DNA from: Candidatus Avimonas narfae
GTDB lineage: Bacteria > Bacillota > Clostridia > Oscillospirales > Acutalibacteraceae
Assembly (NCBI GenBank): GCA_904395335.1
Contig: CAJFNR010000067.1
Location: 1-64,000, forward strand
Direction: 5' to 3'
DNA length: 64,000 nt
Part shown: piece by piece, positions 1-60,558 of the stretch
Layout of the letters: each line of letters begins with the position of its first letter
How positions within the stretch are numbered: position 1 is the stretch's first letter
The notes under the pieces: model-generated
What the model was told of the DNA's origin: nothing
The model's database searches: none
What the model saw: the letters and a program-made list of their open reading frames with translations, nothing else
Made by a program: the position numbers and the translations under genes

Positions 1-141
1 GGCCCCGGGCACATTATACCACAAATGTGGAGGGAGAATTGGCGGTGCCGCGAAGCGGGAGGAGGTCGTTCCGACCGACAGCCAATTGGGACTCCCCTAC
101 ACAGTTTACCATCAAACATAAGCCCTGGGCACATTATACCA
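1..141 (-). repeat. TGGTATAAT-bounded intergenic repeat, copy 1
   Basis: Read on the minus strand, one unit runs from TGGTATAATGTGCCC (starting at 141) to the next TGGTATAATGTGCCC (starting at 21), a period of 120 bp, and a second unit continues past the left edge. The unit holds the hairpin GGTCG-GAA-CGACC and a core, CACCGCCAATTCTCCCTC, shared with the array at 26231. It lies downstream of rplS and encodes nothing recognisable. Confidence 0.8.
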
Positions 142-26230: not shown

Positions 26231-26461
26231 TGGTATACTGGCCCAGGGCCTCTATGCTTGATAGCAAACAATGTTGGATGTCCCTGGGCCTAGAGAAATT
26301 GTCTGTCGGCCGGAACGGCCTCCTCCCGCTTTGCAGCACCGCCAATTCTCCCTCTACGCCTATGGTATAATAAAGGTCGGGAGAAATGCGAGAGCATTTC
26401 TCGGGAACGCCGCCGATAGACGTTAGATCAAAACCGCATGGGGCGGCGTTCATGGTATAAT
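26231..26461 (+). repeat. TGGTATAAT-bounded intergenic repeat, copy 2
   Basis: Unit A runs from TGGTATACT (26231) to TGGTATAAT (26363), and unit B from there to TGGTATAAT (26453), with lengths 132 and 90. Unit A has the hairpin GGCCG-GAA-CGGCC and the CCCAGGG/CCCTGGG inverted repeat. Unit B has GAGAAATGC-N4-GCATTTCTC and the arms AACGCCGCC/GGCGGCGTT. The array is oriented toward the response regulator gene. Confidence 0.85.
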
Positions 26462-26811
26462 GAATTATGGATAGAGATGCAACTTCAAAAGCCTTTCCCT
26501 AGAGGTATGCTTCCCCCTTATGGGGAAGAGGACCGCCGTCAGCTGGTAGCTGAGGTGGGAAGTTACGATCATACAGCCATTGAGATTGAGAAACAGCTTT
26601 TTACACCTTATCAATCTCGCCGAGCGCTGAATCCGCTCCGCTCACCACCTGCCCGAAAGACAGGGACAGGTACAAAATTACGATTCGATGACTGTTGGGA
26701 TAGGAAGGCTCCGGCGCCTACCCCAGAAAGCATTTCCCCATTTTTCGCAGATATCTGCATACCTATTCCCTGCTGAGAAAAGGCCGGGTATGTCAAGGAG
26801 GAAATTCGCTC
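26462..26811 (+). other. Leader region of the response regulator, no gene seen
   Basis: This 350-base stretch continues the non-coding region from the ComEA gene. It contains the hairpin CTTCCCC-CTTAT-GGGGAAG (around 26509-26527) but no convincing coding sequence. AAGGAGG just before 26812 is the ribosome binding site of the response regulator. No clear promoter could be placed. Confidence 0.5.
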
Positions 26812-27519: not shown

Positions 27520-28530
27520 ATGTTCCGTTTCTTTCGCAACCGGGAAATCCGCCGGCTGACAATCGGTTTGCTGCTGCTGACGATGACTGCCGCCGGCGTT
27601 GCCGGCCTGTGTCTGGACTGGGACGCGGGAGCAGCTGCCGGCCTAACCGGCTTTCTGCTTTCCACGGCGGCGCTGCTATTCACCTACCGTCGATACCGGC
27701 GGATCGATCAACTTTCCGCTTATCTGCACCGCCTGTCCTCCGGAGAACGGCGCCTGGACATCCGGGACAATGAGGAGGGCGAACTGAGCATCCTGAAAAA
27801 CGAAATTTACAAGGTAACGGTGCTGCTGGCGGAATACAACGACCAGCTGCAAAAGGAAAAGGGCCGGCTGGCCGATTCCCTGTCGGATATCTCCCATCAG
27901 CTGAAAACCCCGCTGACCTCCATGACCGTCATGGCGGATCTGCTCAGTAAAAGCGATCTGCCTGCTGAAAAACGGCGGGAATTCACCGGACGGCTGCGTT
28001 CCCAGCTGGAACGGCTGCAATGGTTGGTGGCCTCGTTGCTTAAGATCGCACGGCTGGATGCCGGTGTGGTCGTATTCAAATCGGACGTTTTTTCCGTACA
28101 GAAGTTGGTGGAAAGCGCTGCCGCCCCTCTGCTAATCCCTTTGGAGCTCAAAGGGCTGACTCTGGAAACCGATGGACCAGACATCACGATGGAGGGCGAT
28201 GAGGGTTGGCTGCGGGAGGCGCTGGTGAATCTGATGAAAAACGCCATGGAACACACCCCTTCCGGAGGAATGCTCCGAATCTTCTGGACAGGTAACCCCC
28301 TCTATACAGAAATTGCTGTAGAGGACAGCGGCGAAGGGATTCCCCCGGAGGACCTGCCTCATATTTTCACCCGGTTTTACCGAGGAAAGAACGCAGGTTC
28401 CGATAGCGTGGGAATCGGACTGGCTATGGCCCGGGAAATCGTGGAACGCCAGAACGGACGCATAACGGCTCAAAGCCGCCTCGGCAAAGGAACCTGTTTC
28501 CGGATCCGCTTATACAAGACGGTGGTTTAG
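27520..28530 (+). CDS. Sensor histidine kinase
   Basis: A 336-residue kinase with two close N-terminal membrane helices (about 13-31 and 36-55) and almost no outside loop. A HAMP-like segment follows, then the phosphoacceptor His126 in SDISHQLKTPLTSM, and the ATPase boxes N (REALVNLMKNAMEHT), G1 (VEDSGEGIPP) and G2 (SVGIGLAMAREI). The lack of an outside sensor domain is the feature of intramembrane-sensing kinases that rely on a partner ABC transporter, which follows directly. The likely signal is a cell-wall antibiotic or peptide; this is inferred from layout. Confidence 0.95.
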   Translation: MFRFFRNREIRRLTIGLLLLTMTAAGVAGLCLDWDAGAAAGLTGFLLSTAALLFTYRRYRRIDQLSAYLHRLSSGERRLDIRDNEEGELSILKNEIYKVTVLLAEYNDQLQKEKGRLADSLSDISHQLKTPLTSMTVMADLLSKSDLPAEKRREFTGRLRSQLERLQWLVASLLKIARLDAGVVVFKSDVFSVQKLVESAAAPLLIPLELKGLTLETDGPDITMEGDEGWLREALVNLMKNAMEHTPSGGMLRIFWTGNPLYTEIAVEDSGEGIPPEDLPHIFTRFYRGKNAGSDSVGIGLAMAREIVERQNGRITAQSRLGKGTCFRIRLYKTVV

Positions 28531-28600
28531 ACCCAGGGCCTCCAGCCACGAGGGTAACCCCTGGCCTGGGGTCGTCCCTCCGGGCTGATCCCACGGCTAT
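28531..28600 (+). repeat. Partial copy of the TGGTATAAT-bounded repeat
   Basis: Directly after the kinase stop codon the sequence CCCAGGGCCTC, then CCCCTGG-CCTGGGG, CGTCCCTCCGGGCTG, follows the unit A order seen at 59068-59168. Both TGGTATAAT ends are missing, so it is a remnant. Confidence 0.6.
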
Positions 28601-28611
28601 TGCGATTTCCA

Positions 28612-34049: not shown

Positions 34050-34126
34050 TGGTCCGAGTGACAGGAGTCGAACCTGCGGCCTCTTGAACCCCATTCAAGC
34101 GCGCTACCAATCTGCGCTACACCCGG
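34050..34126 (-). tRNA. tRNA-Pro (anticodon GGG)
   Basis: The 77-base minus-strand sequence folds as a cloverleaf. The acceptor stem CCGGGTG/CACTCGG includes one G-U pair; the D arm contains AGCGCAGATTGGTAGCGC; the anticodon loop ATGGGGT between CTTGA and TCAAG gives GGG; the T arm contains GGTTCGACTCC. The discriminator is A and the CCA end is encoded. It reads CCC codons. Confidence 0.96.
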
Positions 34127-44332: not shown

Positions 44333-44552
44333 CCCATACCAGCAGTAATTTTATCGTAGCTTTCCATCTCATCCGTCCCACTTTGTGGGACACGCTGCTT
44401 TTCGGCAGCGTTCCCGAGAAATGCTACCGCATTTCTCCCGACCTTTATTGTACCATAAGCGTAGAGGGAACCGGCCCGCAGGGACGGCTTCAGGCACAGG
44501 AGCTCCCCTATCGTTTGCCATCAGGCATAGAGATCCGGGGTCCATTATACCG
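44333..44552 (-). repeat. TGGTATAAT-bounded intergenic repeat, copy 4
   Basis: On the minus strand CGGTATAAT (44552) opens unit A, TGGTACAAT (44455) opens unit B, and TGGTATGGG (44341) closes it. Unit B has GAGAAATGC-GGTA-GCATTTCTC and ACGCTGC-CGAAA-AGCAGCGT, then an extra GTCCCAC/GTGGGAC hairpin. It lies between pheS and proS and points toward pheS. Confidence 0.8.
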
Positions 44553-58939: not shown

Positions 58940-59252
58940 TGGTATAATGTGCCCATGGCCACTATGTGATGGACAAGCCTTGTGGGATGCCCCTGGGGCC
59001 TGGAGAAATCGGCTGTCGGTAGGCCCCCCGCCCCTGCATGGCACTACCTTGTCTCCCTCTACGCCTATGGTATTAATGTGCCCAGCGTCTCTACGTCTGA
59101 TGGCAAACAATGCGGGAATCCCCTGGGCCTGGGACCGTCCCTTTGGGCTGGTTCCCTCCTACCATTTTGGTATAAAATGCGTCAGCATTTCTCGGGTATG
59201 CTGACGTTAAACATAGACTAAGAGCCGCATGGGGCAGCGTTCATGGTATACT
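58940..59252 (+). repeat. TGGTATAAT-bounded intergenic repeat, copy 3 (three units)
   Basis: Boundaries TGGTATAAT (58940), TGGTATTAAT (59068), TGGTATAAA (59168) and TGGTATACT (59244) define units of 128, 100 and 76 bp: A, A, B. The second A matches the copy at 44455-44552, and the B ends in CGCATGGGGCAGCGTTCATGG like copy 2. The array points toward the LCP gene. Confidence 0.85.
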
Positions 59253-59294: not shown

Positions 59295-59323
59295 TTGACA
59301 TTTCTCGTCCCTGGGTTTATAAT
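59295..59323 (+). promoter_or_regulatory. Promoter of the LCP gene
   Basis: TTGACA (59295-59300) and TATAAT (59318-59323) with a 17-bp spacer: a full consensus sigma-A promoter, just after the repeat array. Confidence 0.88.
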
Positions 59324-59424: not shown

Positions 59425-60558
59425 ATGAGCGGAAAACACACCAAAGGAAAAAACGACAATAAGGTTGTCGTGTCCCCCGAGGATACGGCAACACCTCATT
59501 CCAAACGAAAAAAGAAAAAGAAACTGACCAAAGGACAGATTATCAAACGGGTAATGATCGGCGTCATTGTCTGCCTCTTTTTGGTGGCCGGCGGTATCTT
59601 TACCTATATCGCCTATCTGCTCAACAGTATGGATGTCGTAGATATACCGAAAGACGATACTCAAATCAACATCAGTGACCAGTATCAGGATAAAAAATAT
59701 GATGGTATCCGCAACATCGCCGTATTTGGTGTGGATCGACGCGGCGGCAATGCCAATACCCGTTCCGACGTCATTATAATTTTAACCCTGGACAACCAGC
59801 ATAAAAAAATCAAGGCTACCTCCCTATTGCGGGACAGTTATGTATCCGTGGAAGGATACGGAAAGACAAAATTAACACACGCCTATGCCTATGGCGGTCC
59901 GGAGTTGGCCATCAAGACCATCAATTCCAATTTCAATATGAATATACGGGATTTCGTCACTGTGGATTTTGACTCTATGGCCAAAATCGTCGACGCGGTA
60001 GGCGGTGTGGATATCGAAGTGACGCAAGGCGAACTGGAAAGCCTAAACAAATGCATCGACGAATATGCCGATGCTTACGATATTGAAGAGCGAACCTACG
60101 TCACCTCCGCTGGTATGCAACATCTCAACGGCATGCAGGCATGCGGATATGCCCGTGTGCGGTATGACCATAACAACGGAGATGACCGGCGCCGCACGGA
60201 TCGGCAGCGTCGTGTTATGGAGGAAGTCTTCAACAAGGCGTTGACTATGGATCCCGCCGGATATCTTTCGCTGGCGCAGACATTGCTCCCCCTAGTGGAA
60301 ACCTCTTTCTCCGCCGGAGATCTGATCGACCTGGTTGGTGAAGCCACCGATATTCTCACCAACGACGGAGCGGAATTTGAACAGGCGCGTTTCCCCATGG
60401 ATGTCGATGCTTCTTTCCCGAGGATTGACGGAATGGAAGTGGTAGATTTTGATCATGAAGTAACCAACGAAAAGCTGTACAACTTCATTTTCGAAGACAT
60501 CGATCCTTCCGCTACCACCACCGGCAACACTTCCACCACCTCAAAAAACAACAACTAA
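59425..60558 (+). CDS. LytR-CpsA-Psr (LCP) family wall-polymer ligase
   Basis: LCP enzymes attach teichoic-acid-like or capsular polymers to peptidoglycan. The 377-residue protein has a basic cytoplasmic N-terminus, one membrane helix (about 43-67) and the LCP domain with FGVDRRGG, TRSDVIIILTLD, TSLLRDSYV, HAYAYGGPELAIKTI, and YARVRYDHNNGDDRRRTDRQ, which holds the pyrophosphate-binding Arg residues. The Thr/Asn tail is low in complexity. It may attach the glycan made by the operon at 5936-10769, but they are far apart and this is an inference. Confidence 0.95.
   Translation: MSGKHTKGKNDNKVVVSPEDTATPHSKRKKKKKLTKGQIIKRVMIGVIVCLFLVAGGIFTYIAYLLNSMDVVDIPKDDTQINISDQYQDKKYDGIRNIAVFGVDRRGGNANTRSDVIIILTLDNQHKKIKATSLLRDSYVSVEGYGKTKLTHAYAYGGPELAIKTINSNFNMNIRDFVTVDFDSMAKIVDAVGGVDIEVTQGELESLNKCIDEYADAYDIEERTYVTSAGMQHLNGMQACGYARVRYDHNNGDDRRRTDRQRRVMEEVFNKALTMDPAGYLSLAQTLLPLVETSFSAGDLIDLVGEATDILTNDGAEFEQARFPMDVDASFPRIDGMEVVDFDHEVTNEKLYNFIFEDIDPSATTTGNTSTTSKNNN

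Follow-up and report, generated by a model that had tools for sequence, protein, structure and literature searches.

The window analyzed here (57.3% G+C) comprises 64,000 nucleotides of contig C67 from the 2.45 Mb draft genome of Candidatus Avimonas narfae, which is distributed over 79 contigs. Five intergenic places in the window hold copies of a modular repeat whose units begin and end with the 9-mer TGGTATAAT or a close variant of it; the coordinates of all units are collected in Table 1. Element 1 is located at the very start of the contig, where bases 1-12 open another A head that is cut off by the contig start. In element 2 the 9-mer at 26363-26371 is common to the A and B units and the right 9-mer of the B unit occupies 26453-26461. 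Element 3 starts at the very end of a gene for a histidine kinase (27520-28530, NCBIfam) within a row of regulator, kinase and transporter genes. Positions 44447-44455 of element 4 (44333-44552) are common to its truncated B unit and its A unit and, as judged by eye, the truncated B unit continues into a piece of another repeat family. Element 5 (58940-59252) has the module order A-long, A-short, B and the separate promoter-like site behind it precedes a gene of the LCP family (59425-60558, NCBIfam). A tRNA gene at 34053-34126 (minus strand) is the sole Rfam match in the window.

Table 1. Repeat units and associated features in the window (R1 and R2, covariance models of units B and A)
Feature	Position	Strand	Basis
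Element 1, one A-long unit	13-141	-	R2 match; exact 9-mers
Element 1, left 9-mer	133-141	-	exact 9-mer
Element 1, right 9-mer	13-21	-	exact 9-mer
Element 2, A-long unit	26231-26371	+	R2 match; 9-mers 26231-26239, 26363-26371
Element 2, B unit	26363-26461	+	R1 match, 120.4 bits
Start of C-type module behind element 2	26462-26535	+	~70 nt likeness to right flanks of other elements
Element 3, degenerate A unit	28520-28608	+	R2 match, E 8.3e-4
Element 4, A-short unit	44447-44552	-	R2 match
Element 4, truncated B unit	44380-44455	-	R1 match, 59.3 bits
Element 5, A-long unit	58940-59076	+	R2 match
Element 5, A-short unit	59068-59176	+	R2 match
Element 5, B unit without first part	59168-59252	+	R1 match, 69.6 bits
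Promoter-like site behind element 5 (TTGACA, 17 nt, TATAAT)	59295-59323	+	sequence reading

Copies throughout the draft genome were sought with two covariance models, R1 for unit B (built from 23 B units) and R2 for unit A (built from 12 A-short units and detecting A-long units as well), with some of the window copies included in the training sets. At E <= 0.01 there are 183 unit matches, 58 to B and 125 to A, that merge into 112 elements, and blastn with 58940-59252 against the same genome returns 59 matches. Neighbouring units overlap by exactly the 9-mer in 64 of 71 cases genome-wide and none of the 112 elements contains units of mixed orientation. Within the window TGGTATAAT is found 14 times when at most one mismatch is allowed (6.29 expected), a count reached in none of 100 shuffles; a chance origin of the repeats was rejected on the basis of the 9-mer shuffles, the genome-wide blastn and covariance matches and reversed-pattern controls. 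No fewer than 43 of the 158 contig ends are within 100 bp of an element, from which we conclude that the assembly breaks at the repeats and that the true copy number is probably higher.

These data bear out the central proposal of an earlier note on this DNA, made from the letters of the window, that the repeats form a modular intergenic family, present many times in the genome, whose units join at the 9-mer; the five places that it listed are all among the R1 and R2 matches. Its description of the copies needed repair at the ends of 1-141 and 44333-44552 and had missed a third module, C. Likewise, the two kinds of unit that it had distinguished stand as A and B, with A now divided into A-long and A-short and with C added, while the orders A, A-B and A-A-B that it gave are joined by BA and BB. 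Over 109 elements the neighbour pairs are AB (33), AA (18), BA (14) and BB (5).

Units of type A-long, A-short and B measure ~142, ~107 and 99 bp, respectively. The B fold consists of a 9-bp and a 10-bp hairpin, A-short of two hairpins and A-long of a hairpin and a branched tail; relative to shuffled sequences the folding energy of the B consensus has a z-score of -3.49, that of the A-short consensus only -1.66. An alignment of B from 7 B-like copies of two related genomes (G001 and G002) and 5 copies of the A. narfae genome, which was fitted to the model and hence leans towards the structure, has 98.2% of its cells paired, with 10 of 19 pairs changed on both sides and a covariation of 0.507, as compared with 0.179 for shuffles and at most 0.079 for slid controls. 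The two-hairpin fold of unit B is backed by strong covariation across three species.

Module C, ~210-260 bp long as measured by eye, has the same 9-mer at its bounds and is present in several element flanks. A second repeat, with TTCCCCTTGAGGGGAAG and GGATGAGGTGG palindromes, lies beside elements in the flanks of loci L008, L011, L014, L020, L027 and L030 and also at ~44333-44380 and 26462-26535 of the window; in several places it is bounded by the 9-mer (module C). Long palindromes were noted by eye in module C and in the unit of another genome, G171. Chimeric units exist as well, for example a 78-bp A head with a B-like end. Of five B-like copies that we read in G001, L095 and L097 are oriented like their 9-mers, whereas L100 and, with less certainty, L091 and L101 point the opposite way, so that module and 9-mer are not firmly tied to one another. 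The A-long tail motif CTGTCGG...CTCCTGC, which recurs between different stems in L100 and L091 and at the site in G002 that corresponds to element 33, has the look of a folded core that has been conserved. Some A copies (C12:18199, C46:38265, C48:14 and C75:7178) begin right at the stop codon of a gene and have CGGCCCAGG in place of GTGCCCAGG; these copies are possibly terminators.

TGGTATAAT corresponds to an extended -10 promoter box. The consensus of 72 left edges is TGRTATAMT, preceded by TTA or TTG, and a report on Eubacterium callanderi (PMC13340025) gives TTGACA and TATAAT as promoter motifs. After removal of 19 edges that resemble another module from 64 usable ones, 45 left flanks are available, the loose filter having also discarded elements 33 and 76, both of which have good promoters. 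Of the 45 flanks 16 have, at 16-18 bp, a hexamer that matches TTGACA in at least 4 of 6 positions, as opposed to 5.5 in shuffles (P 0.0005), with a spacer of 17 in 10 and of 18 in 5. Control spacer windows contain 10, 9, 2, 4, 1, 3, 7 and 12 such hexamers per 45 flanks, and since several of these are raised (9-12 of 45) the -35 spacing in the A. narfae genome is, taken by itself, moderate evidence. Among the elements of the window only element 2 has a hexamer that reaches the threshold at 16-18 bp; elements 1, 4 and 5 score 2, 3 and 2.

The position of the elements relative to genes was established from gene calls based on codon usage, trained on the 31 long reading frames of the window, for the 99 of 109 elements that contain no gene. 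The right neighbour is co-directional with the element in 68 of 78 called cases and the left neighbour in 47 of 76, and tandem gene pairs around elements are of the ++ type in 31 cases versus a single -- case. Flipping an element would interchange ++ and --, so the orientation is strongly biased. The contrast is weaker when start codons and a ribosome site are the sole criterion (right 49/66, left 37/66). In raw counts, 7 of the 56 elements with both neighbours called lie between convergent genes and 48 have a co-directional gene to the right.

Empty orthologous sites in relatives, which the earlier note had named as a form of support, could be sought in G002, a member of the same genus (97% complete; median identity 58% over the best matches of 28 flank reading frames in its first 0.68 Mb). 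In the 1.454 Mb compared, the neighbours on both sides are present in order for 14 of the 109 elements; two of these have gaps that are too long, leaving 12 that were run. By program, 4 of the 12 sites have a -10-like box (at least 5 of 6) no more than 3 nt from where the left flank would put it, against 0.72 expected (Poisson tail about 0.006, from summed per-site chances). They are those of elements 33 (C26:29803), 38 (C34:84614), 69 (C53:57850) and 83 (C63:59993); the flank alignments for elements 69 and 83 are weak, with shuffle P values of 0.26 and 0.065. Inspection by eye shows that a -35-like hexamer at 17-18 nt is kept in G002 for elements 38 and 83, and adds, by eye only, element 76 (C60:10626) with TTGACG, 18 nt and TATACT in both species. 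At the site of element 33 a different hairpin unit stands behind the same promoter in G002. Seven of the 12 sites (elements 18, 32, 42, 58, 82, 93 and 107) have no -10 box at the predicted place, by eye included: element 58 has no usable place, the box is further off for elements 32 and 42, and for elements 93 (element 3 of the window) and 107 the left 9-mer coincides with the conserved end of a host gene. The expectation of empty sites is thus borne out in part, at the four sites found by program and the one found by eye. The boxes in G002 and the gene ends together indicate that at several sites the left 9-mer belongs to the host, often as a promoter and sometimes only as a loosely similar sequence. 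A base-exact comparison of empty sites needs a pair of strains; that with G002 is between different species of one genus.

The modules themselves have a narrow distribution. R1, run against 60 genomes including that of A. narfae, yields 20 matches in G001, 3 in G002 and a single weak one in each of G015 and G041, with none in the other 55, and R2 gives 6 weak matches in G001 and none in five further relatives. One B pattern and one A-head pattern each have 0 matches in viral contigs, and one B pattern in a collection of named genomes, from which A. narfae is absent, hits 11 stretches, of which five were inspected and none is this element. In a vent bacterium (Bacteroidetes MAG HyVt-532; L204, L206 and L210) there is an interspersed repeat with GGCGTTCCCGAGAAATC arms that has a 19-base word in common with unit B.

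The junction, in contrast to the modules, recurs in other genera with unrelated inner sequence. The pattern TGGTATAMT, 75-105 nt, TGGTATAMT occurs in 15 of the 150 family genomes and 23 of the 196 class genomes searched, versus 1 and 3 genomes for the reversed pattern; some single matches (L222, L223 and L226, by eye) lie inside genes and hence are not units. Multi-copy families are found in G148 (36 pattern matches, 84 by blastn), G171 (14), G274 (18), G247 (9), G226 (5), G201 (9), G279 (4) and G203, G235 and G353 (3, 2 and 5). All 8 loci fetched from G274 read, by eye, as host DNA, units, last 9-mer, leader and gene, with 7 of the 8 scored by script as having 29-58 nt from the last 9-mer to the start codon, and near-identical units are present at unrelated genes. 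A sense start codon within 150 nt is seen to the right in 13 and to the left in 3 of 20 fetched loci from five families; for the arrays of G148 the numbers within 250 nt are 33 and 9 of 42. A pool of 30 left edges from 13 genomes, which leaves out G148 (where the left flank is a repeated module), L348, which lacks a flank, and loci that we considered coding, has a -35-like hexamer at 16-18 nt in 18 cases versus 4.3 expected (0 of 4000 shuffles), 14 of the 18 at spacer 17, with other spacer windows containing at most 8. For single units the folding z-scores are -5.3 to -7.1 in G274, G226, G279 and G203, -3.2 in G201 and -4.3 for B of G002, while the G148 unit folds no better than shuffles (z -0.46); hairpins are therefore common, yet not shown in every family. 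At L220 and L230 of G171 there is a palindromic version of the unit in which TGGTATAAT alternates with its complement. The extended -10 nature of the 9-mer, the -35 spacing, the sense position upstream of genes and the junction in other genera had all been missed in the earlier reading.

No mobilising enzyme emerged from a protein search that covered PF01797 (Y1 transposases). The earlier note had suggested a test for a REP-associated tyrosine transposase. The intact Y1 gene of A. narfae looks like an ordinary IS200 whose ends, by eye, are unlike those of the units, and four genomes with units (G002, G247, G203 and G353; 79-97% complete) have no Y1_Tnp match; on these grounds such a link is unsupported and a Y1 transposase was rejected as the mover. 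When the unit consensuses of seven genomes were compared with nine Y1 loci only matches of 24-29 nt were obtained, to a nested GTAG-type hairpin. The weak Y1 matches found in G274 and G279 lie, on our reading, in frames about as long as a RAYT gene; those of G274 (L354 and L359) carry GTAG-type hairpins with a GGCGATTC core, and the loop of the G279 unit (L349 and L350) encloses a similar hairpin, so that one repeat is nested in another.

It is useful to place the elements among known systems. Rfam gives no match at the gathering score in 20 loci, and a permissive search of 11 loci returns one sub-threshold match, which is outside the element. REP/BIME sequences, which are associated with RAYT, are small hairpin repeats spread over a genome that have a GTAG-type foot; the A. 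narfae units are similarly small, hairpin-bearing and dispersed but have no such foot, and no dedicated RAYT was found in the Y1 search. Small elements derived from IS200/IS605 have hairpins near their ends, lie in one orientation behind a short target and may act through single-stranded DNA. Hairpins near both ends and a single orientation behind a short target are features of our units too, and action on single-stranded DNA is a possible further one, whereas the IS200 of the same genome has other ends and four unit-bearing genomes are without Y1. Putative mobile promoters are said to be repeated short sequences before different genes that may be promoters. Compared by description only, they are nearest in position, being likewise repeats before different genes, and they differ in that the A. 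narfae units are joined at the -10 box itself, behind a host -35/-10. If a mobile promoter is defined as a repeat that lies before different genes and carries a promoter, the position of the units and their predicted boxes would fit. PMC8049555 cites Matus-Garcia 2012 and van Passel 2014 on this subject. In looks the nearest known system is the BOX element of Streptococcus pneumoniae, described in PMC3049150 as modular and intergenic, with more than 100 elements made of several hundred modules, with hairpins, and judged to be parasitic. The likeness lies in modularity, intergenic location, hairpin folds and more than 100 elements per genome. In the same account a BOX element always ends in boxA on one side and boxC on the other, carries terminal inverted repeats, is flanked by target duplications and is found more often than expected where two genes converge, whereas in the A. 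narfae elements either A or B can be the first or the last module, all modules meet at one common 9-mer and the elements lie mostly upstream of genes in the sense direction. The open-licence part of the literature that was searched contains no description of repeats joined at, or inserting into, -10 boxes.

We think it probable that the elements are non-autonomous and mobile and that they usually land at the extended -10 box of a promoter. A unit with its hairpins and its own terminal TGGTATAAT would insert directly 3' of a -10-like sequence in one orientation, leaving the old -35/-10 in front of it, and the box at its right end, placed before the gene, may serve as a new -10. The left 9-mer would then in general be host DNA and the right copy would be the one that drives the gene. 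The right-end 9-mer would in turn be a further landing site, so that units can stack head-to-tail with common 9-mers; insertion of this kind would account for the shared 9-mers, the single orientation and the freedom in the order of modules. The -10 region lies in the single-stranded bubble of an open promoter, which makes an enzyme that joins single-stranded DNA and is supplied in trans an attractive idea.

Several other readings compete with promoter-targeted insertion. Were the units dispersed regulatory leaders, that is, selected RNA elements of 5' leaders with the 9-mers as promoters of units and gene, one would expect the sense position upstream of genes and the conservation of the B structure by covariation across three species. 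We nevertheless regard this as unlikely, because near-identical units precede unrelated genes, module order varies freely, orthologous genes in G002 are without the unit at several sites and some copies are at gene ends. Dispersal of whole units through recombination or gene conversion at the 9-mer, without any transposition enzyme, seems less likely still: 9 bp is short for spread to more than 100 places and the near-identical G274 units at unrelated genes look recent, even though the 9-mer is, by eye, the common part of A, B and C and chimeric units such as the 78-bp A head with a B-like end could arise in this way. Finally, direct 9-bp repeats on both sides of small, non-coding, hairpin-rich units are what an ordinary MITE moved by a DDE transposase would produce, with the 9-mers as its target duplication. 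However, the left 9-mer of an element matches its right 9-mer no more closely than in shuffled pairings (266/351 versus 264.2, P 0.345, 39 elements), in a test of low power because the 9-mer varies little, and in the alignments of A and B the ends are direct copies with no terminal inverted repeat. A plain 9-bp target duplication is therefore unsupported, and we consider a MITE of this type very improbable.

That the same layout is found with unrelated repeats elsewhere in the class suggests an unrecognised kind of promoter-targeting mobile DNA. In a wider and more tentative form of our preferred reading, to which we give somewhat less than even chances, small mobile units that are unrelated in sequence between genera would attach at the opened -10 region of sigma-A promoters throughout the class, each leaving a -10 on both sides and so building arrays of promoter, hairpin and promoter. 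If this is true then promoters would be preferred places of insertion for a group of small repeats, and the leaders of genes would be remodelled step by step as hairpin units bringing possible new start sites are added. Bacteria that have received little study would thereby have a natural source of variation in gene expression. It would also explain why draft assemblies break at the elements, as at the contig ends counted above, and the link between open promoter complexes and DNA insertion would become testable.
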